The notes under the pieces were generated by a model. That model saw only the letters and a program-made list of their open reading frames with translations, was not told where the DNA came from and did no database searches. Source: Metallosphaera tengchongensis (lineage in GTDB: Archaea > Thermoproteota > Thermoprotei_A > Sulfolobales > Sulfolobaceae). From it: a DNA stretch of 64,000 nt. The position numbers were made by a program, and so were the translations under genes. The DNA lies in the NCBI RefSeq assembly GCF_013343295.1, contig NZ_CP049074.1, positions 787,501 through 851,500 on the forward strand. Direction: 5' to 3'. Positions 4,257 to 15,244 of the stretch are shown here, piece by piece; position 1 is the stretch's first letter; every line of letters starts with the position of its first letter.

Positions 4257-4264
4257 TTTTATAG
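4257..4264 (+). promoter_or_regulatory. TATA box upstream of cbiC operon
   Basis: TTTTATAG predicts transcription starting near 4286-4290, about 10 nt before ATG 4297. I looked for a cobalamin riboswitch in the 200 bp leader region and saw none. Confidence 0.5.
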
Positions 4265-4296
4265 TAGACAGTCATTAAGATGGATATGATCCCATC

Positions 4297-4860
4297 ATGG
4301 GAGACGTAGATAATATCAGCAAAGAAGGAGATATGAAAATAGACTTTCTACTTGGAGATTTTCTAAGTTTATTGAACCCTAGAGAGGCTCACGTCATGAG
4401 GAGAGTCATTAGGAGCATAGGAGACCTTGACCTCGTTGGTACGCTTAGGTTCTCAAAAAATGCCCTTACTGTAGGACCGGAATTGGTAAGGAAAGGTGTT
4501 CTTGTTGATACCCGAATGGCGAAAGCGGGTTTAGGCAATCTTGGGATATATGTAGAGCCTAGAACCAGGACTAATAAGTACTTCTCGCAAGACATTGTTG
4601 AGTCTTGGAGGGAAGTTATGAATGGAAAAGCGGTAATGATTGGAACTAGCCCTTTGGCTTTGGGGAAGTTGCTAGAACTGATCAACGAGGGGTTTCGGCC
4701 AGGACTTGTAATAGGTGTACCTGTGGGATTTGTTAATGCTTTAAGATTAAAATATATGCTATCAAAAAATAATTCGGTGGAGTATATCACAAACATAAGC
4801 GTTAAAGGCGGAGTTTCCCTAGGAGTAAGCTTAGTAAAGGCTTTGATGGAAATTGAATGA
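4297..4860 (+). CDS. cbiC: Precorrin-8X methylmutase-like protein (cobalt-precorrin-8 methylmutase)
   Basis: CbiC/CobH moves a methyl group from C11 to C12 to give (cobalt-)precorrin hydrogenobyrinate in cobalamin synthesis. The family block VIGVPVGFVNA and the KGG motif near the C-terminus are clear, as is IGTSPLALGKLLEL. Odd point: the segment aligned with the catalytic VIHxxxD reads VIRSIGDLD, placing Arg39 where the family has an essential His. ATG 4297 lies just below the TATA box; ATG 4333 has a Shine-Dalgarno-like AAGGAG 2-7 nt upstream and could be used instead (175 residues). It overlaps the next gene by 8 bp. Confidence 0.8.
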   Translation: MGDVDNISKEGDMKIDFLLGDFLSLLNPREAHVMRRVIRSIGDLDLVGTLRFSKNALTVGPELVRKGVLVDTRMAKAGLGNLGIYVEPRTRTNKYFSQDIVESWREVMNGKAVMIGTSPLALGKLLELINEGFRPGLVIGVPVGFVNALRLKYMLSKNNSVEYITNISVKGGVSLGVSLVKALMEIE

Positions 4861-5941
4861 GATTGATTTTCTTTCTACGGTATTGTTTTACGTGGAAGAT
4901 GGATATCCTCTCCCTGTAGCGTTCTCAAAAGCCAAGTCTACTAAGAGAGTAAAATCTAATTATGACGATCTGTATGAAATCTCAAGGAAACTGGTTCTAA
5001 GCTACTTTAGTTTAAATGGAAAGACTAGAAGGAAAAAGGTGAAGGAATTTTTGAGCATGGATGGGGTAAACGTTGGACTTCCAGCATGGATGGAGAGGGA
5101 ACTTAATACTCTGATCGACATCGAGAAGTATAAAAAGAGTCTAGTGAATGGAAAGGCGCAGTGGTTCCGGGTAAATCGAATTTTAGCTGACGAAGATAAG
5201 ATCCTAAAGAGTCTCGAGATGAAGGGTCTAGAATTCGCGAGGGATCCAGATTTCCCTTATATATACAGATCTCTTTCTAAAGATGTAAGTAAAACAGAAG
5301 AATTTCAAAATTTTAAGATAATAATCCAGGACAAAGCGAGTGTTGCCGTCGTAGAGGCGTTAAAACCGAAAGAGTATGAGAAGATATATGAGATGGCATC
5401 CTCCCCTGGGCTCAAATCTCAGTTAATATACGAGAAGACTGAAGGAAAAGTAGAGCTGTTCCTTGCGGAGATCGACAGGCGTAGACTTGATAAAGAAGTA
5501 GACCTTTTGAAAAAATTTGGTGTCGACTTTAAGAACGTTCACTTCGTTAACCAGGACTCAAGATACGGTAGCATAAGATACGCTGACGCTGTATTGATCG
5601 ATGCTCCTTGCTCAACTTCAGGAGTTATATCAATTGACCCAAGTATTTTGCTATCCCTTAGAAATAAGTCGAAAGTAAAACAATATTCAAGAGTTCAACA
5701 ATCACTTTTAGAGGATTTGTTCTCCATTAAATTTAAGAGGGCAGTGTACTCCGTTTGCTCTATTTTCCCTGAGGAAGCTGAAATGCTTTTGGATAAACTT
5801 AAAGATATGCTTCTCCCCACCGACATACCTGGATCCAAAGGGTACACTAGTTTTGAGTCAGGTAGATTGGGGGTAAGATATTTTAATTTCGTGCATAAGA
5901 CAGAAGACTTTTTTATAGGAAAACTAAAGGGAAATGAGTGA
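4853..5941 (+). CDS. RsmB/NSUN-type m5C RNA methyltransferase
   Basis: S-adenosylmethionine-dependent RNA cytosine-C5 methyltransferase of the Sun/NOP2 family. Motif IV DAPCSTSG and motif VI VYSVCSIFPEE supply the two cysteines used in catalysis; motif I reads ASSPGLKSQ, with Leu in place of the usual second Gly. A 150-residue N-terminal region precedes the Rossmann domain. The start is TTG, overlapping the end of cbiC by 8 bp, and its stop overlaps cbiD by 8 bp, so it is translationally coupled inside the cobalamin operon. Target (tRNA or rRNA) is not evident. Confidence 0.75.
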   Translation: MNEIDFLSTVLFYVEDGYPLPVAFSKAKSTKRVKSNYDDLYEISRKLVLSYFSLNGKTRRKKVKEFLSMDGVNVGLPAWMERELNTLIDIEKYKKSLVNGKAQWFRVNRILADEDKILKSLEMKGLEFARDPDFPYIYRSLSKDVSKTEEFQNFKIIIQDKASVAVVEALKPKEYEKIYEMASSPGLKSQLIYEKTEGKVELFLAEIDRRRLDKEVDLLKKFGVDFKNVHFVNQDSRYGSIRYADAVLIDAPCSTSGVISIDPSILLSLRNKSKVKQYSRVQQSLLEDLFSIKFKRAVYSVCSIFPEEAEMLLDKLKDMLLPTDIPGSKGYTSFESGRLGVRYFNFVHKTEDFFIGKLKGNE

Positions 5942-7091
5942 GTTGAGCGTAAGAATTCCCTTGACTTACCAGCCCTCCTCCCCATCCCTCTCCAACGCAA
6001 AATCGGCTCGCCGAAAAATAATGAAAATGGGCTTCACTACAGGTACTGCCGTGGCAGCAGCTGCTAAAGCTTGTGCCATCACGTTCAAGCGAGGTACTAT
6101 TAGCTCTGTGGTTGTCTCTACACCCATAGGATTGAGAATAGAAGTACCTTTGAATTACGTCAAGAGGATTGGAGAGTGGTGTGAAGCGTCAATTACCAAG
6201 TATGGAGGAGACGATCCAGATGATACGAATGGGATGGAGATCATTGTTAGGATGAAGCTCAATAATGATATTGGTTTCTTGACTTTAAAAGCAGGGAAGG
6301 GTATGGGGGTTGCGACCAATCACGGTCTCCCGGTATCAAAAGGGGAACCTGCCATTAACCCAGTTCCTAGAAAACAATTAATAGATAATCTAAAGGAAGT
6401 TTTAGGAAATGAGTTCGGTGCAGAGCTCGAGATCATTATACCGGAAGGCGAAAAGATCTCCAAAAGAACGTTTAACCCTAAACTTGGAATTGAAGGAGGA
6501 GTTTCAGTCCTAGGGACAAGCGGAATAGTGAAGCCAATGAGCTTAGTTTCCTGGTACGCCTCTATGGTAGAACAACTAGATATCGTGAAAAGTTACGGAC
6601 TTGACTATGTAGTTTTGGTTCCAGGAAATATAGGCGAGACGAGTGCAAGGAAAAAGCTAGCTGTGGATAAGAGATCAATTGTCCAAATGGCTATATTCAC
6701 TGGTGGAATGTTGAAGGCGTCGGCTAAGAGAGGATTTAAGGAAATTCTTTTGTATGGTCACGTAGGAAAACTCATAAAGAGTGCGATTGGAATATGGAAT
6801 ACCCATTATAAATATGGGGACGGGAGATTAGAGACCATCACCGCATATGCTGCCAAGCATGGAATAGATCCTCAGGATCTGCAAAAAATATTCAGCGCTA
6901 AAACTACTGACGATGCAATACAAATTTTAAGTAAATATGACTATTTCTCAATTTTTAATGATATAGCTAATAGGATTGTAAAAAACTCTCGCGAATTAAT
7001 AAGCAATAAATCCGACATATATTGTATTTTAATTAATATGGAGGGGGAAATTGTTGGTGAGTCAGAAGGTGCAAAGAAATTTCTGGCCTAA
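5934..7091 (+). CDS. cbiD: Cobalt-precorrin-5B C1-methyltransferase
   Basis: CbiD methylates C1 in the anaerobic (early cobalt insertion) branch of cobalamin synthesis. The family opening GFTTGTAVAAAAKA is at about residues 32-45, followed by DDPDDTNG, the GxGxGVATNHGL stretch and GTSGIVKPMS. About 25 residues precede the usual family start, so initiation at the in-frame ATG for MKMGFTTG is possible. The listed ATG overlaps the methyltransferase stop. Together with cbiE and cbiT this marks the anaerobic pathway. Confidence 0.9.
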   Translation: MSELSVRIPLTYQPSSPSLSNAKSARRKIMKMGFTTGTAVAAAAKACAITFKRGTISSVVVSTPIGLRIEVPLNYVKRIGEWCEASITKYGGDDPDDTNGMEIIVRMKLNNDIGFLTLKAGKGMGVATNHGLPVSKGEPAINPVPRKQLIDNLKEVLGNEFGAELEIIIPEGEKISKRTFNPKLGIEGGVSVLGTSGIVKPMSLVSWYASMVEQLDIVKSYGLDYVVLVPGNIGETSARKKLAVDKRSIVQMAIFTGGMLKASAKRGFKEILLYGHVGKLIKSAIGIWNTHYKYGDGRLETITAYAAKHGIDPQDLQKIFSAKTTDDAIQILSKYDYFSIFNDIANRIVKNSRELISNKSDIYCILINMEGEIVGESEGAKKFLA

Positions 7092-7698
7092 GGTACTGGG
7101 TGCAGGTCCGGGCAGTTCCAAGTACTTTACAACGATCCTTTTAAGTAGTTTGAAGGACGCAGAGACGGTAGTGGCGTCGTCTAGAATTCTCCAAGAGATC
7201 AAGAAAATTAGTGCTACGGATGCAGAACTGATAGAACTGCCTAAGGGAGGAGAGCTTTACGAGTTCCTTAATACTATCAAAAGTAAGGAACGTACTTACG
7301 TTTTATCTACAGGGGATCCTATGGTCTCAGGTCTAGGAAAATTCTTTCCCGAGTCAGAGATAGAGCCTGGTATAAGTTCAATACAGAAATGCGCCTCATT
7401 GATTCACAAGCCCATAAATGACTCAGCTATTATTTCATCGAGATATAAGAACAACTATGGTAAAATTTCGCATTTAATAGCTTTAGGATTGAACGTGTAC
7501 CTTCTGCCAGAGCCTGAACTTACTGTCTCAGAGGTTGTAAAAAAGATTGCCTCAAATGTTGGATACAAACTGAGACTTCACATATGCATTGACGTCTCTT
7601 TGGATACAGAGAGAGTTTACGTTGGCTCTGTCGAAGATTTCATGAACCTTGACGATAATGGTCTAAAGGTAATTTTCGTGGAACCCTCTCCGTCTTAA
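7051..7698 (+). CDS. cbiE: Cobalt-precorrin-7 C5-methyltransferase
   Basis: Tetrapyrrole methylase fold: the SAM-binding VLGAGPGSSKYFT is at residues 15-27, and STGDPMVSGLG is the second glycine-rich loop. CbiE methylates C5; the C15 methylation and decarboxylation partner is CbiT, found here as a separate gene at 13549. The listed start is TTG, 41 bp inside cbiD; a GTG at 7057 is equally likely, with a GAGGGG ribosome-binding-like stretch at 7041-7046. It ends 17 bp before upsX. Confidence 0.85.
   Translation: MLVSQKVQRNFWPKVLGAGPGSSKYFTTILLSSLKDAETVVASSRILQEIKKISATDAELIELPKGGELYEFLNTIKSKERTYVLSTGDPMVSGLGKFFPESEIEPGISSIQKCASLIHKPINDSAIISSRYKNNYGKISHLIALGLNVYLLPEPELTVSEVVKKIASNVGYKLRLHICIDVSLDTERVYVGSVEDFMNLDDNGLKVIFVEPSPS
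7672..7677 (+). promoter_or_regulatory. Possible UV-responsive hexamer upstream of upsX
   Basis: ATTTTC matches the ANTTTC motif reported for UV-inducible Sulfolobus acidocaldarius promoters. It starts 22 bp before a weak TATA-like CTTAATC (7694-7700). It lies inside the end of cbiE. A similar arrangement occurs before upsA. Confidence 0.3.
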
Positions 7699-7715
7699 TC
7701 AGTTCTCCTTATCAC

Positions 7716-9698
7716 GTGAAAGTCCCTAGATTAGAATATTCTTCAAAGATTGATATTCCAGACGGTCTCGAAGCTACATTTAGGAAAACTACAGATCATT
7801 TTGAACTTTTAACTTCCGCCCTGATTCAACCTAAAATAAGGGTATATCCTAAGGTTGACGTAATTGGAGATTACTGGCTTTTTCAAATAGGAAGCTCCCT
7901 TATGGAAATTGAGGGCGATACTCATAGGGTAATTAAATGTGACACAAATCAGTGCAATAAGGCTTGGGGCGTGCATTATGTGAAAGTTGGAAGTGAGATT
8001 GAACGGATCTACTTTTTGAACAATAAATACGTCTTCAAAAATGACGAGTATGAGACCCTAATTTCATATTTCGGTACAACCTGCCTCATGAATAAAGGGA
8101 AAGGGATTATTTTCAAAAATGGAAAGATATTTGACTTCGAGGATCTAAAATTGATAGGCACCTCAAGGGCTGGCTTATCGTTGATAAGAGAGGGGGAAAC
8201 AACGCTATTGGGCTGGGACAATTCAGTTCAAAAGTTTAAGATAGAGGGAATTATTCTGTATCATAATATTAATGATATTATCTTCAAGGATCCAGAGGAT
8301 AAATTAGTTATTAATGATCGAACCATAGGCACTTGCAAGGAGAACGCAGATGTTATAGCTGGAGGCCATGGTTGGTATTTAATCTCTTGTGGGAATTTGG
8401 TTCGGCAGTATTTCTGGGATGGATGGAGATCAGTCAGAACTGGAATATATCCAACAAAAAGTGACGGTAGCGAAAACTACGTGGCTCTAGTCTCAGAAGG
8501 GAAAACGGAAATTTTTGACAACAACTTTAAACTATTATATGAGCTTAAGCCCGCTACGGTAGGAGTTGGGAGAAGAAAGGTTGTTATATACAGGAAAAAG
8601 ACCGTATCAATTATAGATCTCAGCGATCTGTTAGAGGTCAAGATAGAAGAAAACCGACCCGAGAACATTATCTCAATAAGAGTTCCTGAAGGCTACGTTA
8701 TTGAGACCGATAAATTTTTACCTAAAGTAAGCAGTCGTAAGGTAAATGGATATGTTGTGGAACAATTTGAATATTTAGGGAATTACCCTCGAATGAGTTT
8801 TAACCTGCTTTCTGAATTCATTTCTTCTGAAATACCTATCTCATTAAACGAGGAGCCCATCATTTTACGATTTAAGGGGAATCTTTTAGTAGCAGATAGT
8901 TTCGGACGAACTAAGGACAACAATGGTAACGCAATACTTAGCGGGGAACTTTTAATAAACAGAAACATAAGATCAGAGGCTGTTTTAAGAATTTCTCTCG
9001 ATTCACTGCATAAAGAAATAAAGGCTAAGTTTTCCGACAAGAGATTTGTATTCAACGAGAGTTTACGTGTCCCTGCATGGGAGAAAAGCCATAAGGAGAT
9101 ACGCTTTAGCCTATTTGTCAATGATATGGAGATAAGCAGTTTACAAGCGTTAGTGCCAGTTGTCAAAATTGAAAAACCAAAGGAAACTAAAAAACTCTTT
9201 ATTGATAAGGGTCACATATTTCTTGAAATTTTACGATCAGAGGATAAAAACTTTATTTTTGACACGGTAAAGGTGCATCCAAAATATAAGCAACCGGTTG
9301 AAATAATAGTTAACAGTGTACTAGATAATTCAAAGAAAAGCAGGGTCAGATTCGATTACAAATATTCCAATAATACTGTTGTCATGAGGATGTTTTTATA
9401 TAAATTAATAAGAAATCCTAAAATATGGATAGAGGGAAATTATCTCAATGTAGACCCAAACATTTCCTTATCCGTTCCTGTTCAAATATTTTATGGGACT
9501 TCGGCTTACTTCGGGCTACCAATACGTGTCCTCTTTCCTTTTGATCCAATATACGATTTAATTGTGATCAGGGTTTTCGTTGGTAATACCGAAATTGAAG
9601 AAAGGTACAGAATAGACTCCTTAAATCTAGGTTTCATTATCGCAAATGCCTCTTCAATGAAAATCAAGGAAGTGACCGAAAGTGTTGGCGTACTCTGA
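7716..9698 (+). CDS. upsX: UpsX, first gene of the UV-inducible pilus operon
   Basis: 660-residue protein, named from its position in front of upsE-upsF-upsA-upsB and its length, close to that of UpsX in other Sulfolobales. No catalytic motif, signal peptide or membrane span is obvious. The first 330 residues contain many short beta-strand-like repeats with W/G spacing that could form a propeller, and the rest is also beta-rich. In Sulfolobus acidocaldarius UpsX is needed for efficient DNA exchange but not for pilus assembly, and its function is not settled. GTG start. Codon use is more AT-rich than in the cob genes. Confidence 0.75.
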   Translation: MKVPRLEYSSKIDIPDGLEATFRKTTDHFELLTSALIQPKIRVYPKVDVIGDYWLFQIGSSLMEIEGDTHRVIKCDTNQCNKAWGVHYVKVGSEIERIYFLNNKYVFKNDEYETLISYFGTTCLMNKGKGIIFKNGKIFDFEDLKLIGTSRAGLSLIREGETTLLGWDNSVQKFKIEGIILYHNINDIIFKDPEDKLVINDRTIGTCKENADVIAGGHGWYLISCGNLVRQYFWDGWRSVRTGIYPTKSDGSENYVALVSEGKTEIFDNNFKLLYELKPATVGVGRRKVVIYRKKTVSIIDLSDLLEVKIEENRPENIISIRVPEGYVIETDKFLPKVSSRKVNGYVVEQFEYLGNYPRMSFNLLSEFISSEIPISLNEEPIILRFKGNLLVADSFGRTKDNNGNAILSGELLINRNIRSEAVLRISLDSLHKEIKAKFSDKRFVFNESLRVPAWEKSHKEIRFSLFVNDMEISSLQALVPVVKIEKPKETKKLFIDKGHIFLEILRSEDKNFIFDTVKVHPKYKQPVEIIVNSVLDNSKKSRVRFDYKYSNNTVVMRMFLYKLIRNPKIWIEGNYLNVDPNISLSVPVQIFYGTSAYFGLPIRVLFPFDPIYDLIVIRVFVGNTEIEERYRIDSLNLGFIIANASSMKIKEVTESVGVL

Positions 9699-9702
9699 GA
9701 TC

Positions 9703-9711
9703 TTTTATAAC
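9703..9711 (+). promoter_or_regulatory. TATA box upstream of upsE
   Basis: CTTTTATAA lies 15 bp before the upsE ATG, closer than usual for a leaderless gene. GAAAGT at 9679-9684, the reverse complement of ACTTTC, begins 24 bp before it. Confidence 0.45.
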
Positions 9712-9725
9712 TAGGATCCAAATTA

Positions 9726-11153
9726 ATGAGAACTGTTGTAGAAGAGTACTATATACTGGGAAACAAGGTATCTATTATAGACGATGATGGAAGAGGGTTA
9801 TACATAATTGAAGAGCCTAAAGTCCTAGATGAGGAAAGAGATATTATTAACAGAGTTCTAGATGAGGTATTCCTATCTTCTAATGCTGCAGGAGATATAG
9901 AAAACAAATTTCACGAAATTATTAAGAAACGAAATATTAATCAAGATACAGCTGAAAAGATTGAAAATATTTTAAAAAAGAGACTATTTTTTGAACAAAT
10001 TACTATCCCCCTCCTCGATCCTGACGTCGAAGAAATAGAGTGCACTGGACCGAACTTTCCGCTTACTGTTATTCATCGGAAACACTCAAAATATCTAAGG
10101 CTTTATACAAACATTATATTAGGAAAAGAAGAGGACATCATTAAAATTATTGAGAAATTAGCTATAAAAAGTAATAAATCTGTAAACATTGCGAGACCTT
10201 ACATGGAGTTCTCCCTCCCTGAAGGTCACAGGGTTGCGGCAACCATATCCAACGAAATCTCGAGCCCCGGTTCAACCTTCGACATAAGGAAGTTCCCCTT
10301 ATCTCCCATATCCCTAGTAAAATTAATCATGTCAGGATCCATAAGTGTTGAAGCAGCCTCATATCTATGGTTCTTGTTGGATTATAGACCTTTCTTTCTT
10401 GTAGTGGGCTCCACTGGGTCTGGCAAGACCACGTTCTTAAACGCATTACTAAATTTTACCAACCCAGATTCAAAGATCTTAAGTATAGAGGACACTCCAG
10501 AATTAAACTTGGCTGGGAAAAATTGGATAAGGTTTTTCACGAGATCTACAGGGACTAATTCATACGACGTCACTCTAAATGATTTATCCAGGTTGGCTCT
10601 AAGATATAGACCAGACTACTTAATAATCGGAGAAGTTAGAGGCAAGGAAATTGAAACTTTAATTCACGCCTCTGCTTCAGGCCATGCGTCTTTGAGTACT
10701 TTCCATGGTGGGAGGCCCTCAGACGTTGTGACCAGAATTATAAGCCTTTTACCTAAGGAGCAAGCCCTAATGTTCTTAAATAACATCTGGGGTTTTATCA
10801 TGGTCGGAAGAAGAGTCGACGATAGTGGAAGGGTAGTGAAGGCTGTGAGTTCAATATATGAGACTGTAAGAGTGGATAATAGAACGAAATTCAAAAAAGT
10901 CATATGGTGGTCTAATAGGCAGAAAAGATATGAACCTGTTGATATATCCTTTATCATTAAGAATTCTATAAAAATAAGATATTTATCGCAACTTTATGAA
11001 ATAGATATCAAAGATATAATAAATAATTTAGAATTAAGAGTCAATTTTTTAAAAAATCTATTACTAAATAATATCGTAGATAATCAGTCTATACAAAAGT
11101 TTATTGGAGATTTTTATAGGAAAGGTGATATTCATGTACAAACGAGTATCTAG
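9726..11153 (+). CDS. upsE: UpsE, type IV pilus assembly / secretion ATPase
   Basis: GspE/TadA-type hexameric ATPase driving assembly of the UV-induced pilus. The N-terminal domain ends near residue 200; Walker A GSTGSGKTT is at about 227-235, the Asp box EDTPEL at 256-261, Walker B IIGEVRG near 300-306 and the His box STFHGGRP at 323-330. At 475 residues it is of normal length. Position between upsX and upsF identifies it as UpsE rather than the archaellum or Aap pilus ATPase. Its 3' end overlaps upsF. Confidence 0.9.
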   Translation: MRTVVEEYYILGNKVSIIDDDGRGLYIIEEPKVLDEERDIINRVLDEVFLSSNAAGDIENKFHEIIKKRNINQDTAEKIENILKKRLFFEQITIPLLDPDVEEIECTGPNFPLTVIHRKHSKYLRLYTNIILGKEEDIIKIIEKLAIKSNKSVNIARPYMEFSLPEGHRVAATISNEISSPGSTFDIRKFPLSPISLVKLIMSGSISVEAASYLWFLLDYRPFFLVVGSTGSGKTTFLNALLNFTNPDSKILSIEDTPELNLAGKNWIRFFTRSTGTNSYDVTLNDLSRLALRYRPDYLIIGEVRGKEIETLIHASASGHASLSTFHGGRPSDVVTRIISLLPKEQALMFLNNIWGFIMVGRRVDDSGRVVKAVSSIYETVRVDNRTKFKKVIWWSNRQKRYEPVDISFIIKNSIKIRYLSQLYEIDIKDIINNLELRVNFLKNLLLNNIVDNQSIQKFIGDFYRKGDIHVQTSI

Positions 11154-12705
11154 GTATAGTAAACTATATCATTCAATTTTAAAATTTTTAGATAGATTTG
11201 GTAGTTTAGCTATTTTAACAAAGATTTCTCCTTATTCTTTATTTTACTCTAGAATAAAGAGTGTTCATGAATTCATAGGAGAAAATCCACTCTATTTAGA
11301 AAACTACTCTAGAAGAATGTGGATTTTCCTTATAATATCAGGAGCGTTCGCAATTTTTCTAACTATCAGAAACTTGTACTTCTCGTCTCTAGCCATAATA
11401 CCGGTAGCCATCTATCTTTATCCACTTTTTGTTACTGAGCTCAGAAAACAAGAGTATATTAACGAGTTAAAAAACGAATATGTGCCTTTCTCTATTCTAG
11501 TGTACCTTAACGCCACTTTGGGAAGGGGGCTTAAAGAGGCTTTTGATGATGTGGCAAATAGTAATTTTTTCAATAAAATAAGAAAAGAGTACGAGATTAT
11601 TCAAAGAAGTGGTATCTTCAAAGGACATAGCTTCATGGAAGGCGTTCAAGGGAGATTTAAATCCCTAGGGAACCATCCTTTAGCCAAAGTATATTCAGGC
11701 ACGATTTCTGCACAGTACCTTGGGGTTTCCCTAGCTCAGAGATCACATGAGTTAATTAACAATATACTGTCCTCTATAAAAGAGGAATATCAAAACTTTG
11801 TTAATAAGTCTTCTGAAATAGTAGAGGTGACCTTTTCAATTTTCCTCTTGTTCCCTTTGGTAGCCATAAGCTTCCAGATTTTAGAGAAGAATAATAACTA
11901 CTCCATTCTTATTGCCCCTTTGCTACTAACTCCACTCATGATTCTCTGGGTGTCAACATCTCAACCTAATATGGGAATTCGGATACATATGAGCAAGTAC
12001 CAAGCAATAGGAATTTTAGCGTCGTTACCTTTGCTGATTGTCCCAATAAACATGGAAGAGAAGCTAGCCATACTACTTTTATGGGGCCTAGCTTGTCTCA
12101 TCCCGTCCTATTTAGAAATTAGAGATCAGGAGATCATATTGAACGATATACCTAAGGTCTTATCCGAGATCGCTGATTATAGTAAGTTAGGTTACGGGGT
12201 AAGGACTGCCATTCAGAAAATTGACTTTAATAGCATAGGAATACATAAACAAACTATTAGAGTATTCGACAAGATCAGAGTTTCTATACAGCTCGGACTA
12301 GAAATTCCTTCAAATATCGCTAGATTAAATCTGCTAAATTCATTTTTCGAAATTTTGAACATACTGGATAAGAAAGGTGTTGAGGGAGCTAATGTAATTC
12401 ATGACCTTACGCTTGTAATAAATAATATTATAACAAGCAGACAAAAACTGATCAGTGAACTAAGAACGTTTACTGTTTTAGCTCTAATTTCACCTGTACT
12501 ATTCTGGTTTGCAACAACGTCTATATCTTCAATTTCAGGGGTTCATAGTGAATATCTTAACCTTGTGAATTTAGGATATAGTTTAGCTATTTCCACTATT
12601 TATTCAAGGATATATAAATTCACATTATTAAACCCTATTCTATATATGGTTGTGATAGCCTTATCATTAATACTTTCAATAGTCCCCCCTTCCTTGATAT
12701 TTTGA
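11134..12705 (+). CDS. upsF: UpsF, pilus assembly membrane platform protein (TadC-like)
   Basis: Polytopic membrane protein with two similar halves, each with hydrophobic helices flanking a cytoplasmic segment, as in TadC/FlaJ-type platforms (about 7-9 spans). ATG 11134 is preferred over the upstream TTG 11104 because AAGGTGAT precedes it with good spacing. That gives 523 residues and a 20-bp overlap with upsE, implying coupling. It anchors UpsE and receives the pilins from the membrane. Confidence 0.88.
   Translation: MYKRVSRYSKLYHSILKFLDRFGSLAILTKISPYSLFYSRIKSVHEFIGENPLYLENYSRRMWIFLIISGAFAIFLTIRNLYFSSLAIIPVAIYLYPLFVTELRKQEYINELKNEYVPFSILVYLNATLGRGLKEAFDDVANSNFFNKIRKEYEIIQRSGIFKGHSFMEGVQGRFKSLGNHPLAKVYSGTISAQYLGVSLAQRSHELINNILSSIKEEYQNFVNKSSEIVEVTFSIFLLFPLVAISFQILEKNNNYSILIAPLLLTPLMILWVSTSQPNMGIRIHMSKYQAIGILASLPLLIVPINMEEKLAILLLWGLACLIPSYLEIRDQEIILNDIPKVLSEIADYSKLGYGVRTAIQKIDFNSIGIHKQTIRVFDKIRVSIQLGLEIPSNIARLNLLNSFFEILNILDKKGVEGANVIHDLTLVINNIITSRQKLISELRTFTVLALISPVLFWFATTSISSISGVHSEYLNLVNLGYSLAISTIYSRIYKFTLLNPILYMVVIALSLILSIVPPSLIF
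12672..12677 (+). promoter_or_regulatory. Possible UV-responsive hexamer upstream of upsA
   Basis: ACTTTC fits ANTTTC and starts 24 bp before a TATA-like GATATTTT (12696-12703), which lies about 24 bp before ATG 12723. The spacing is nearly the same as at upsX (22 bp). Located within the end of upsF. Confidence 0.3.
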
Positions 12706-12722
12706 GATATTATTTGAGGAAA

Positions 12723-13148
12723 ATGAGGTCAAAAAAGGCGGTTTCATCCATACTGGGAACAATTCTTATTATTTCAATAACGCTAGCTCTGGGGGGATTA
12801 CTGTACGGTTACAGCAAGGGTCTCTTCGGTAACCTAAGCACCAATGAAGACTTAACAACTAATTTCCAGTTACAGGTGACTCCAGCTGGAAGTTACTTGC
12901 TATACTCTTTGAAAGATGATGGTAATGTAGCGCTTCACCTGGAATATATTGTTTTAAATGGTTCAAATCTTCCCAAACCTTACAAGATCAATATAAATGA
13001 GACTCTCCAGCCAGGCCAGCAGATTCAGAACGTTACGTGGATTCCAGGAACTTTAGTCTCAGGTAACTACTACACAGTGATTGTTTACGCTATTTTACAA
13101 AACGGGCAAATCTATGATACCATCTCTTCAGTTTTGGCGGCGAGTTAA
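12723..13148 (+). CDS. upsA: UpsA, major pilin subunit
   Basis: Pilin with a class III signal peptide: a basic N-terminus (MRSKKA) then VSSILGTILIISITLALGG, to be cleaved by the PibD peptidase after KKA. The remainder is a beta-rich globular pilin domain of about 115 residues with several N-x-S/T sequons for glycosylation. ATG 12723 is preferred over the upstream TTG 12702, as it has a TATA-like box at the right distance and gives the usual short pre-sequence. In Sulfolobus these pili form after UV damage and hold cells together for DNA exchange. Confidence 0.87.
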   Translation: MRSKKAVSSILGTILIISITLALGGLLYGYSKGLFGNLSTNEDLTTNFQLQVTPAGSYLLYSLKDDGNVALHLEYIVLNGSNLPKPYKININETLQPGQQIQNVTWIPGTLVSGNYYTVIVYAILQNGQIYDTISSVLAAS

Positions 13149-13150
13149 TC

Positions 13151-13546
13151 ATGAGGAGTTGGTATGTAAAAGGCATTTCAGAAATTTTTTCTGCACTCCT
13201 AGTTACCCTAATCGTTCTCTCTCTCACGGGTCCCCTATTATACTACGTTTATAGCACAGAGACTCAGCAAAGGGGGACAGTAAGTTACGAAGTAAACTCA
13301 TATTTAGCTTTAACAGAAATAGATATAAAGGTGATTAAAATAAATAATAATTCTTTCTATATTTTTCTTTATAATTATGGACAACAGAAAGATAATATCC
13401 AAGAAATTATAATAGGAAATAAAACCTTTAGTGTCGACAGACCATTATATCCAGGAAATATCGTAAGGCTATCGAATTTCGTTGGAAATATAACAGTTAA
13501 TAGTACAATAATATTAAAGGTAAACAATCTATACTACCTTGGTTAG
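13151..13546 (+). CDS. upsB: UpsB, second pilin subunit
   Basis: 131 residues with a class III signal: MRSWYVKG followed by the hydrophobic ISEIFSALLVTLIVLSLTG, cleavage expected after Gly8. Asn-rich C-terminal half with several N-x-S/T sites. It starts 2 bp after upsA, so the two pilins are co-expressed. cbiT begins 2 bp after its stop. Confidence 0.87.
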   Translation: MRSWYVKGISEIFSALLVTLIVLSLTGPLLYYVYSTETQQRGTVSYEVNSYLALTEIDIKVIKINNNSFYIFLYNYGQQKDNIQEIIIGNKTFSVDRPLYPGNIVRLSNFVGNITVNSTIILKVNNLYYLG

Positions 13547-13548
13547 AA

Positions 13549-14100
13549 ATGTTCCCTCTCCTAGATGATAGGATCTTCGAAAGCCATGAGATTCCTGGAC
13601 CAACCAAACAGGAAATTAGAGCCATCGTGTTGTCCAAGATGAGGATATTCCCTGGATGTAAAATTTTAGAGATCGGAACTGGGACGGGCTCCCTGACTGC
13701 AGAGATTGAGAGATTAGGTTGCTACGTTGTAAGTATCGATATAGAGGATTACATAGAACGAGCACCAGGCAGAAGAATCACATCTTACTCTGATTACATT
13801 CAGGCTTCATCCGAGTATTTTAATTGTAGGCAATCTCAGTTCAACTCTGTATTCATTGGAGGAACCAAGCATCTAGAGCAAAGTGTAAGACTTTCTAGAG
13901 ATCTACTAACTATAGAAGGGCGCCTTGTAGTAAACGCATTTACTATTGAAAGCATAGGAAATATAGGGCATGTCATCCAAAAATATTTCGGAAGTTACAA
14001 CGTGTTGCAAGTTCAAATTTCCGTCGGAGAGAGAAGAGGAGATAGCACCCTTATGATAGCGAGGAATCCAATTTTCATTTTCTATACGACAAAGACTTAA
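13549..14100 (+). CDS. cbiT: Cobalt-precorrin-6B C15-methyltransferase (decarboxylating)
   Basis: Class I SAM methyltransferase: the EIPGPTKQEIRAIVLSKMR opening and the SAM-binding ILEIGTGTGSLTAEI are at residues 17-55, followed by FIGG and GRLVVNAFTIES, and RNPIFIF at the end, all typical of CbiT. It performs C15 methylation and C12-acetate decarboxylation after CbiE. It is separated from cbiE by the whole ups operon and starts only 2 bp after upsB, so read-through from the UV-induced pilin promoter is likely. AT-rich spacer follows. Confidence 0.85.
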   Translation: MFPLLDDRIFESHEIPGPTKQEIRAIVLSKMRIFPGCKILEIGTGTGSLTAEIERLGCYVVSIDIEDYIERAPGRRITSYSDYIQASSEYFNCRQSQFNSVFIGGTKHLEQSVRLSRDLLTIEGRLVVNAFTIESIGNIGHVIQKYFGSYNVLQVQISVGERRGDSTLMIARNPIFIFYTTKT

Positions 14101-14216: not shown

Positions 14217-14480
14217 TTAAGCCGTAACAGGCTCGGTTCTGGTTCTTACTTCCAGAACCTCTCCCCTTTCGAGTCCATCCAGAACCTGCTTTCCTCTCTC
14301 CGTCAGTTTATATACTTTGTGAGATCCTTTTGAGTAAATCGTCTCCACGAGACCCAATCCTTCCAAAACATGAAATATAGCTAAGACCTCATATCTAGGC
14401 AATCGTGTCTTAACCACTACCTCCCCTGGGTTTAGCGCACCTTCAGATATAGCCTCAAGAACCAGTTTTAGCTCGTACAT
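14217..14480 (-). CDS. Small winged-helix DNA-binding protein
   Basis: 87 residues forming a single winged helix: the helix-turn-helix is around 15-45 (GEVVVKTRLPRYEVLAIFHV) and the wing around 47-70 (TIYSKGSHKVYKLTERGKQV). No ligand domain. It sits between cbiT and nth, opposite to both. A TATA-like CTTAAAAG at 14506-14513 lies 26-33 bp before its start; the sequence is nearly palindromic, so it may also serve the rightward nth gene. A local regulator of the ups cluster would be attractive but is not shown. Confidence 0.65.
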   Translation of the reverse strand: MYELKLVLEAISEGALNPGEVVVKTRLPRYEVLAIFHVLEGLGLVETIYSKGSHKVYKLTERGKQVLDGLERGEVLEVRTRTEPVTA

Positions 14481-14548: not shown

Positions 14549-15244
14549 ATGGAATCTTGTGATCCTTCAGATATAATATCGAAGTTAGATCAAGCTTACA
14601 AGGTAGTCCCTGAGGACTTTCTGTCTCTAGAGGTGTGGCTGAAGACATCTGATCCCTTCAAGGTTCTAATTGCTACTATCCTGACCCAGAACACTTCTGA
14701 CAAGGGAGCTAAGAGGGCCTATGAAAAATTGGAAAATACCATAGGAGTTACACCTCTTAAACTGTCCAGCGCCTCCTTAGAGTCTATTAAAGAATGCTTG
14801 AAGGAAATAGGGCTTTATAACAGCAAGTCCAAAACCATAAAGGCAATATCTTCCTTTATCCAAGAAAAATACCGTGGAAATATAGAAGAGATCTTGAACC
14901 TAGGTGTGGAAGAAGCTCGTAAATCTTTGACCTCTGTACCCGGAATAGGGAAAAAAACTGCTGACGTTGTTTTATTGACCTGTAAGAACTATGAGGTTTT
15001 CCCTGTAGACACCCATATCTTCAGGATCTCCGAAAGACTTGGTATTGTAGGTAATTACGACAAGGTGAGTAAGTTCTGGCTAAAAGTCTCAAACAAGAAA
15101 AACATGCTGAGCCATCTTCTCCTTATTACTCACGGGAGGAAAACATGTAAAGCCAATAAGCCGCTTTGTAACATATGTGTCATTAATGGATGCTGCAAAT
15201 ATTACGCTAGATTACATGGATCCGTCGGATCTACTTCCTCATGA
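14549..15244 (+). CDS. nth: Endonuclease III (DNA glycosylase/AP lyase)
   Basis: Base-excision repair enzyme for oxidised pyrimidines. The helix-hairpin-helix VPGIGKKTADVV (about 129-140) carries the catalytic Lys, and VDTHIFR (about 152-158) the catalytic Asp. A C-x6-C-x2-C-x5-C [4Fe-4S] motif closes the protein (about 200-216). In Sulfolobales the genes following ups include an endonuclease III (saci_1497 type), and this gene occupies that place. It overlaps the ParB-like gene. Confidence 0.92.
   Translation: MESCDPSDIISKLDQAYKVVPEDFLSLEVWLKTSDPFKVLIATILTQNTSDKGAKRAYEKLENTIGVTPLKLSSASLESIKECLKEIGLYNSKSKTIKAISSFIQEKYRGNIEEILNLGVEEARKSLTSVPGIGKKTADVVLLTCKNYEVFPVDTHIFRISERLGIVGNYDKVSKFWLKVSNKKNMLSHLLLITHGRKTCKANKPLCNICVINGCCKYYARLHGSVGSTSS

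Follow-up and report, generated by a model that had tools for sequence, protein, structure and literature searches.

Gene content and order of the cbi-ups locus

The window, a stretch of 64,000 nt from the genome of Metallosphaera tengchongensis, a member of a genus of archaea that thrive in heat and acid, harbours a run of ten genes on the plus strand in which neighbours either overlap or lie at most ~30 bp apart. It starts with cbiC (4297..4860), encoding a (cobalt-)precorrin-8 methylmutase that lacks CbiX (PF02570, E 9e-31), followed by the gene of an RsmB/NOP2-like RNA cytosine-C5 (m5C) methyltransferase (4853..5941, PF01189, E 1.5e-20), in the following termed rsmB. Then come cbiD for cobalt-precorrin-5B C1-methyltransferase (5934..7091, TIGR00312 with 358 bits, above the cut-off) and cbiE for cobalt-precorrin-7 C5-methyltransferase (7051..7698). 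The latter exceeds the cut-off for TP_methylase (PF00590), and CbiE models rank best in the profile search yet stay below theirs. A short spacing of 12-17 nt separates cbiE from upsX.

The ups (UV-inducible pilus) genes are present in the order upsX-E-F-A-B that characterises the operon. They comprise upsX (7716..9698; NF046072, E 2e-140, 469 bits, under the cut-off of 550), the pilus assembly ATPase gene upsE (9726..11153; PF00437, 61-68% to the ups-locus UpsE of the genus), upsF for the membrane platform (11104..12705), assigned from its location and from 39-47% identity to the UpsF proteins of other Metallosphaera, and the pilin genes upsA (12702..13148) and upsB (13151..13546), which exceed the cut-offs of NF046073 and NF046074, respectively. 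The true start of upsA is probably the TTG at 12714 rather than 12702. The run ends with cbiT (13549..14100), the predicted gene of the decarboxylating C15-methyltransferase. Its product has CbiT as top NCBIfam models (E 4.9e-26, under the cut-offs) and matches the solved CbiT structures 2yxd (E 3e-12) and 1f38 (E 1e-11), relative to which the GTGTG, FIGG and RNP motifs are retained. Best profiles and solved relatives are thus both CbiT. A convergent winged-helix gene (14217..14480, minus strand) follows. Most Sulfolobaceae have this gene behind upsB or cbiT, and it forms a conserved boundary of the ups locus on the downstream side.

The first-pass annotation had listed cbiC, cbiD, cbiE, upsX-E-F-A-B and cbiT in this order, which open reading frames and profiles uphold except that the RsmB-like gene between cbiC and cbiD was overlooked. 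The start of cbiT 2 bp past the upsB stop, as given there, is borne out by the reading frames (13546 and 13549).

Conservation in Metallosphaera and Candidatus Aramenus

The complete run including cbiT is common to five of six Metallosphaera genomes, namely that of the window, G022, G084 (M. javensis), G102 and G108. Since four other genomes repeat it, the order is not due to chance. Moreover, the upsB-cbiT junction measures -1 to +2 nt in all five. In the M. javensis MAG (L061, about 15190-15215) the cbiT start carries eight instead of seven T and the usual MFPL start is out of frame; the extra T may be an assembly error.

The sixth genome of the genus, G072, has an ups locus without cbi genes and a full canonical cob cluster elsewhere; a search for cbi remnants at its ups locus found none. 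Both genomes of Ca. Aramenus (G011, G059) contain cbiC-rsmB-cbiD-cbiE-upsX and retain a lone canonical cbiT as an orphan elsewhere. As a separate observation, upsF, upsA and upsB are lost in these two (L071, L144), leaving a divergent UpsE-like ATPase only, while upsX and its UV box are retained. In the comparison of the cbiE/cbiT/ups order proposed in the first-pass annotation, the order recurs in four further Metallosphaera and is missing in G072 and in all other Sulfolobaceae examined.

UV boxes and promoters

The UV promoters of the ups genes of S. acidocaldarius require the hexamer ANTTTC at -44 to -39 (PMC5817253), and upsX to upsB are linked on one transcript there (PMC3892339). In the window an ANTTTC ~39-44 nt upstream of the start is found for upsX and for upsA. 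The UV box of upsX, ATTTTC (7672..7677, plus strand), lies within Ile-Phe codons near the 3' end of cbiE; after 16 nt (N16) it is followed by a TATA-like element of the TTAA type (7694..7701, plus strand) that spans the cbiE stop. This layout matches the ups promoters of other Sulfolobaceae, and ATTTTC is located 39-44 nt before upsX, in the last cbiE codons, in 7/7 genomes (five Metallosphaera and two Aramenus). Among the 63 genes of the window only upsX shows the full module of box, N15-18 and TATA at the required position.

Synonymous shuffling of cbiE places the hexamer in that interval with P 0.12-0.21 per genome; multiplied across about five separate lineages this amounts to roughly 1e-4, a rough value since the lineages are related. 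The Ile-Phe pair is absent from CbiE relatives outside the ups-linked clade. Constraint on the coding of Ile-Phe may account for part of the UV-box conservation.

The UV box of upsA, ACTTTC (12672..12677, plus strand), is situated inside upsF and conserved in all four Metallosphaera examined as well as in other Sulfolobaceae. For upsE, the search in Metallosphaera yielded no UV box; a GAAANT in reverse orientation at this gene was considered and discarded as probably coding. tfb3 carries a UV box in 6/6 Metallosphaera and thus serves as positive control that the UV regulon exists in the genus.

With respect to gene content and order, the nth-parB-GT2 flank and the UV boxes of upsX and upsA, the locus resembles the ups operon of S. 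acidocaldarius (saci_1493-1497). It differs in that cbiT directly follows upsB and in that the upsX promoter resides in the 3' end of cbiE, whereas it is intergenic in S. acidocaldarius.

Upstream of cbiC a TATA-like box (TTTTATAGT, 4257..4265, plus strand) is present without a UV box upstream of it. TTTTATA is located at about -39 of cbiC in four of five Metallosphaera and follows a mispredicted start in G102; a motif scan of the five genomes found no placed UV box upstream of cbiC. This points to a promoter of cbiC, cbiD and cbiE that is separate and lacks a UV box. Across the five genomes, a simple motif scan of the 110 bp before cbiT revealed neither a TATA-like element nor a placed UV box; weak promoters, which do occur in archaea, may escape a scan of this kind. 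T-tracts occur at most about 30 nt past upsB in 8 of 10 genomes without cbiT, and inside cbiT in two of the five genomes with ups-linked cbiT. That a terminator was lost is only suggested by these tracts.

Predicted expression of cbiT

We infer co-regulation of cbiT with the pilins from the tight junction in 5/5 genomes, the missing promoter signals of its own and the UV boxes of upsX and upsA. Most likely, judging from these sequence features, cbiT is transcribed together with ups from UV-responsive promoters and cbiC-rsmB-cbiD-cbiE from their own. The TATA promoter without UV box would drive the latter genes and the UV-box promoters of upsX and upsA would drive upsX-E-F-A-B-cbiT. CbiT would then be made at the basal level of ups, and DNA damage would raise it in parallel with the pilins. 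An increase of cbiT upon UV is likely. We consider it probable that this explanation holds as a whole, i.e. that cbi genes settled in the ups locus and UV promoters drive upsX through cbiT. Gene order and its distribution, the discordant CbiD tree, the conserved promoter motifs and the missing promoter signals before cbiT are observed parts of it; read-through into cbiT, its UV induction and any benefit are inferred ones.

A rather unlikely alternative is a neutral housekeeping operon, in which the cbi genes occupy a constitutively active site, the cbiC promoter accounts for most transcription of all ten genes and cbiT responds to UV incidentally or not at all. It would agree with genes that overlap or almost abut from cbiC through cbiT, with the strong TATA before cbiC lacking a UV box and with the expression of ups in S. 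acidocaldarius already without UV (PMC3892339). Against it stands the spacing of UV box and TATA at upsX and upsA, which is kept even though the genus has diverged widely, with UpsX sharing just 31-36% identity. A point against the favoured explanation is that the gap between cbiE and upsX is short as well, so transcription from the cbiC promoter may extend over all ten genes and dampen a UV effect. Very unlikely is a promoter of cbiT inside upsB that is regulated independently of UV: internal promoters are known in the ups operon, at upsE and upsA (PMC3892339, PMC5817253), but the 110 bp scanned before cbiT speak against one here.

Origin of the cbi genes

In the other Sulfolobaceae examined, ups is located at a shared chromosomal backbone without cbi genes, and the cob genes are clustered at another site. 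The upstream flank consists of an oxidoreductase gene and h3457, often also rsmB, leuA and ubiA; downstream, nth, parB and GT2 are found in nearly all. Several of these species have rsmB adjoining upsX with no cbi genes there, and the RsmB-like gene is an old neighbour of ups. The ancestral arrangement of the family is leuA-ubiA-oxidoreductase-h3457-[rsmB]-ups-[wHTH]-nth-parB-GT2. UpsX matches are confined to Sulfolobaceae save three remote, weak ones.

Because other Sulfolobaceae share ups and its flanks without cbi, the pilus locus is the older element, which the cbi genes joined. Insertion of ups into a pre-existing cob operon, one of two histories offered by the first-pass annotation and suggested by the look of the window by itself, is extremely unlikely and ruled out by synteny, since the same chromosomal place holds ups without cbi elsewhere in the family, where cob clusters are sited differently, in another order and with CbiD of a different clade. 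The other history, capture of cbiT, is supported and extends to cbiC, cbiD and cbiE.

The canonical cob cluster of Sulfolobaceae, cbiG-cbiE-cbiX/C-cbiH-cbiD-cbiT-cbiL-cbiF, covers the same pathway steps. In contrast, the genes are dispersed here, CbiC is devoid of CbiX, a CobN-type chelatase is encoded nearby, CbiD belongs to another clade and CbiT is only about 30-35% identical. A chelatase of the CobN type is in keeping with CbiC having lost its CbiX domain. Upstream of the window, just before leuA (L058:8028-16725), genes for a CobN and ChlI/D-type chelatase, a PibD-like prepilin peptidase and cbiG-cbiH-btuF are located.

CbiD is single-copy in every genome with a match. The seven ups-linked CbiD form a clade of their own (100/100) outside the 100/100 clade holding all other Sulfolobaceae CbiD. 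Grouping them with CbiD of G072, which the NrdJ tree places within Metallosphaera (100/100), is rejected by the AU test (p 1.6e-8). Tree and test thus disagree with vertical descent alongside Sulfolobaceae CbiD, and the position outside the family clade indicates a gene replacement from outside the family. By profile, the nearest CbiD are those of Thermoproteota families outside the class (f14, f16, f32 and f40; E about 1e-100, 40-45% identity), whose cob clusters have cbiC-cbiD-cbiE-cbiT in a row. Their clusters differ in being intact and contiguous without ups or rsmB, and their CbiT is nearer to the canonical type than the ups-linked one. Neither of the AU tests A and B on the CbiD donor led to rejection, and these Thermoproteota CbiD may or may not be the sister group; test C was set aside because Sulfolobaceae CbiD itself is not a single clade in the tree.

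The ups-linked CbiT represents a long isolated branch with no close relative among 398 genomes. Its grouping with Sulfolobaceae CbiT yields p 0.27 in the AU test, on a long branch, and it could be either foreign or a fast-evolving native gene. In the trees, CbiD and CbiT of G072 pair with those of G147 (support 100), which suggests that G072 regained its cob cluster by transfer. The canonical cob genes of G072 (L073) pair with those of the distant G147 (L145) at 100, suggesting transfer of the whole cluster.

As a scenario, the Metallosphaera/Ca. Aramenus lineage would largely have lost the usual cob cluster of the family and replaced it by cbi genes sited in and around the pre-existing ups locus. 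cbiC would have landed before rsmB, cbiD-cbiE between rsmB and upsX, and cbiT immediately behind upsB, this last step being confined to Metallosphaera. The UV-responsive upsX promoter would have survived the insertion and now lie within the last codons and the stop of cbiE.

Possible relation to B12 supply

The sole ribonucleotide reductase of the window genome is of class II and depends on adenosylcobalamin, as is that of Sulfolobus (PMC5134839); in Halobacterium nrdJ is induced by UV (PMC1224876). Further pathway genes that were sought, sumT, cbiF-cbiL, cobN/chlID, cbiG and cbiH, are present in the genome. A shortened CbiL, with open frames of 175-189 aa compared to 218-225 aa in canonical clusters, is encoded by precisely those seven genomes whose cbi genes are linked to ups (in the window genome at G000:C1, about 1648830; L238:5828-6355).

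A possible benefit of cbiT in the ups operon, though speculative, would be more adenosylcobalamin for the only, B12-dependent ribonucleotide reductase during repair. That the DNA-damage regulon recruited a cobalamin step, such that UV raises CbiT along with the mating pili and the adenosylcobalamin supply of the only, class II ribonucleotide reductase matches the demand of repair and recombination, seems quite unlikely. More of a single enzyme in the middle of the pathway does not necessarily increase the B12 flux.

No description of the cbi-ups arrangement was found in the literature searched, despite the genomes being public. The locus is a real, conserved and lineage-specific rearrangement, a new combination of known parts. 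It clearly exemplifies the invasion of a stress-inducible operon by metabolic genes, with the stress promoter surviving inside foreign coding sequence. Moreover, it makes testable whether archaeal DNA damage is coupled to the supply of B12, a cofactor that the single ribonucleotide reductase in these cells requires.
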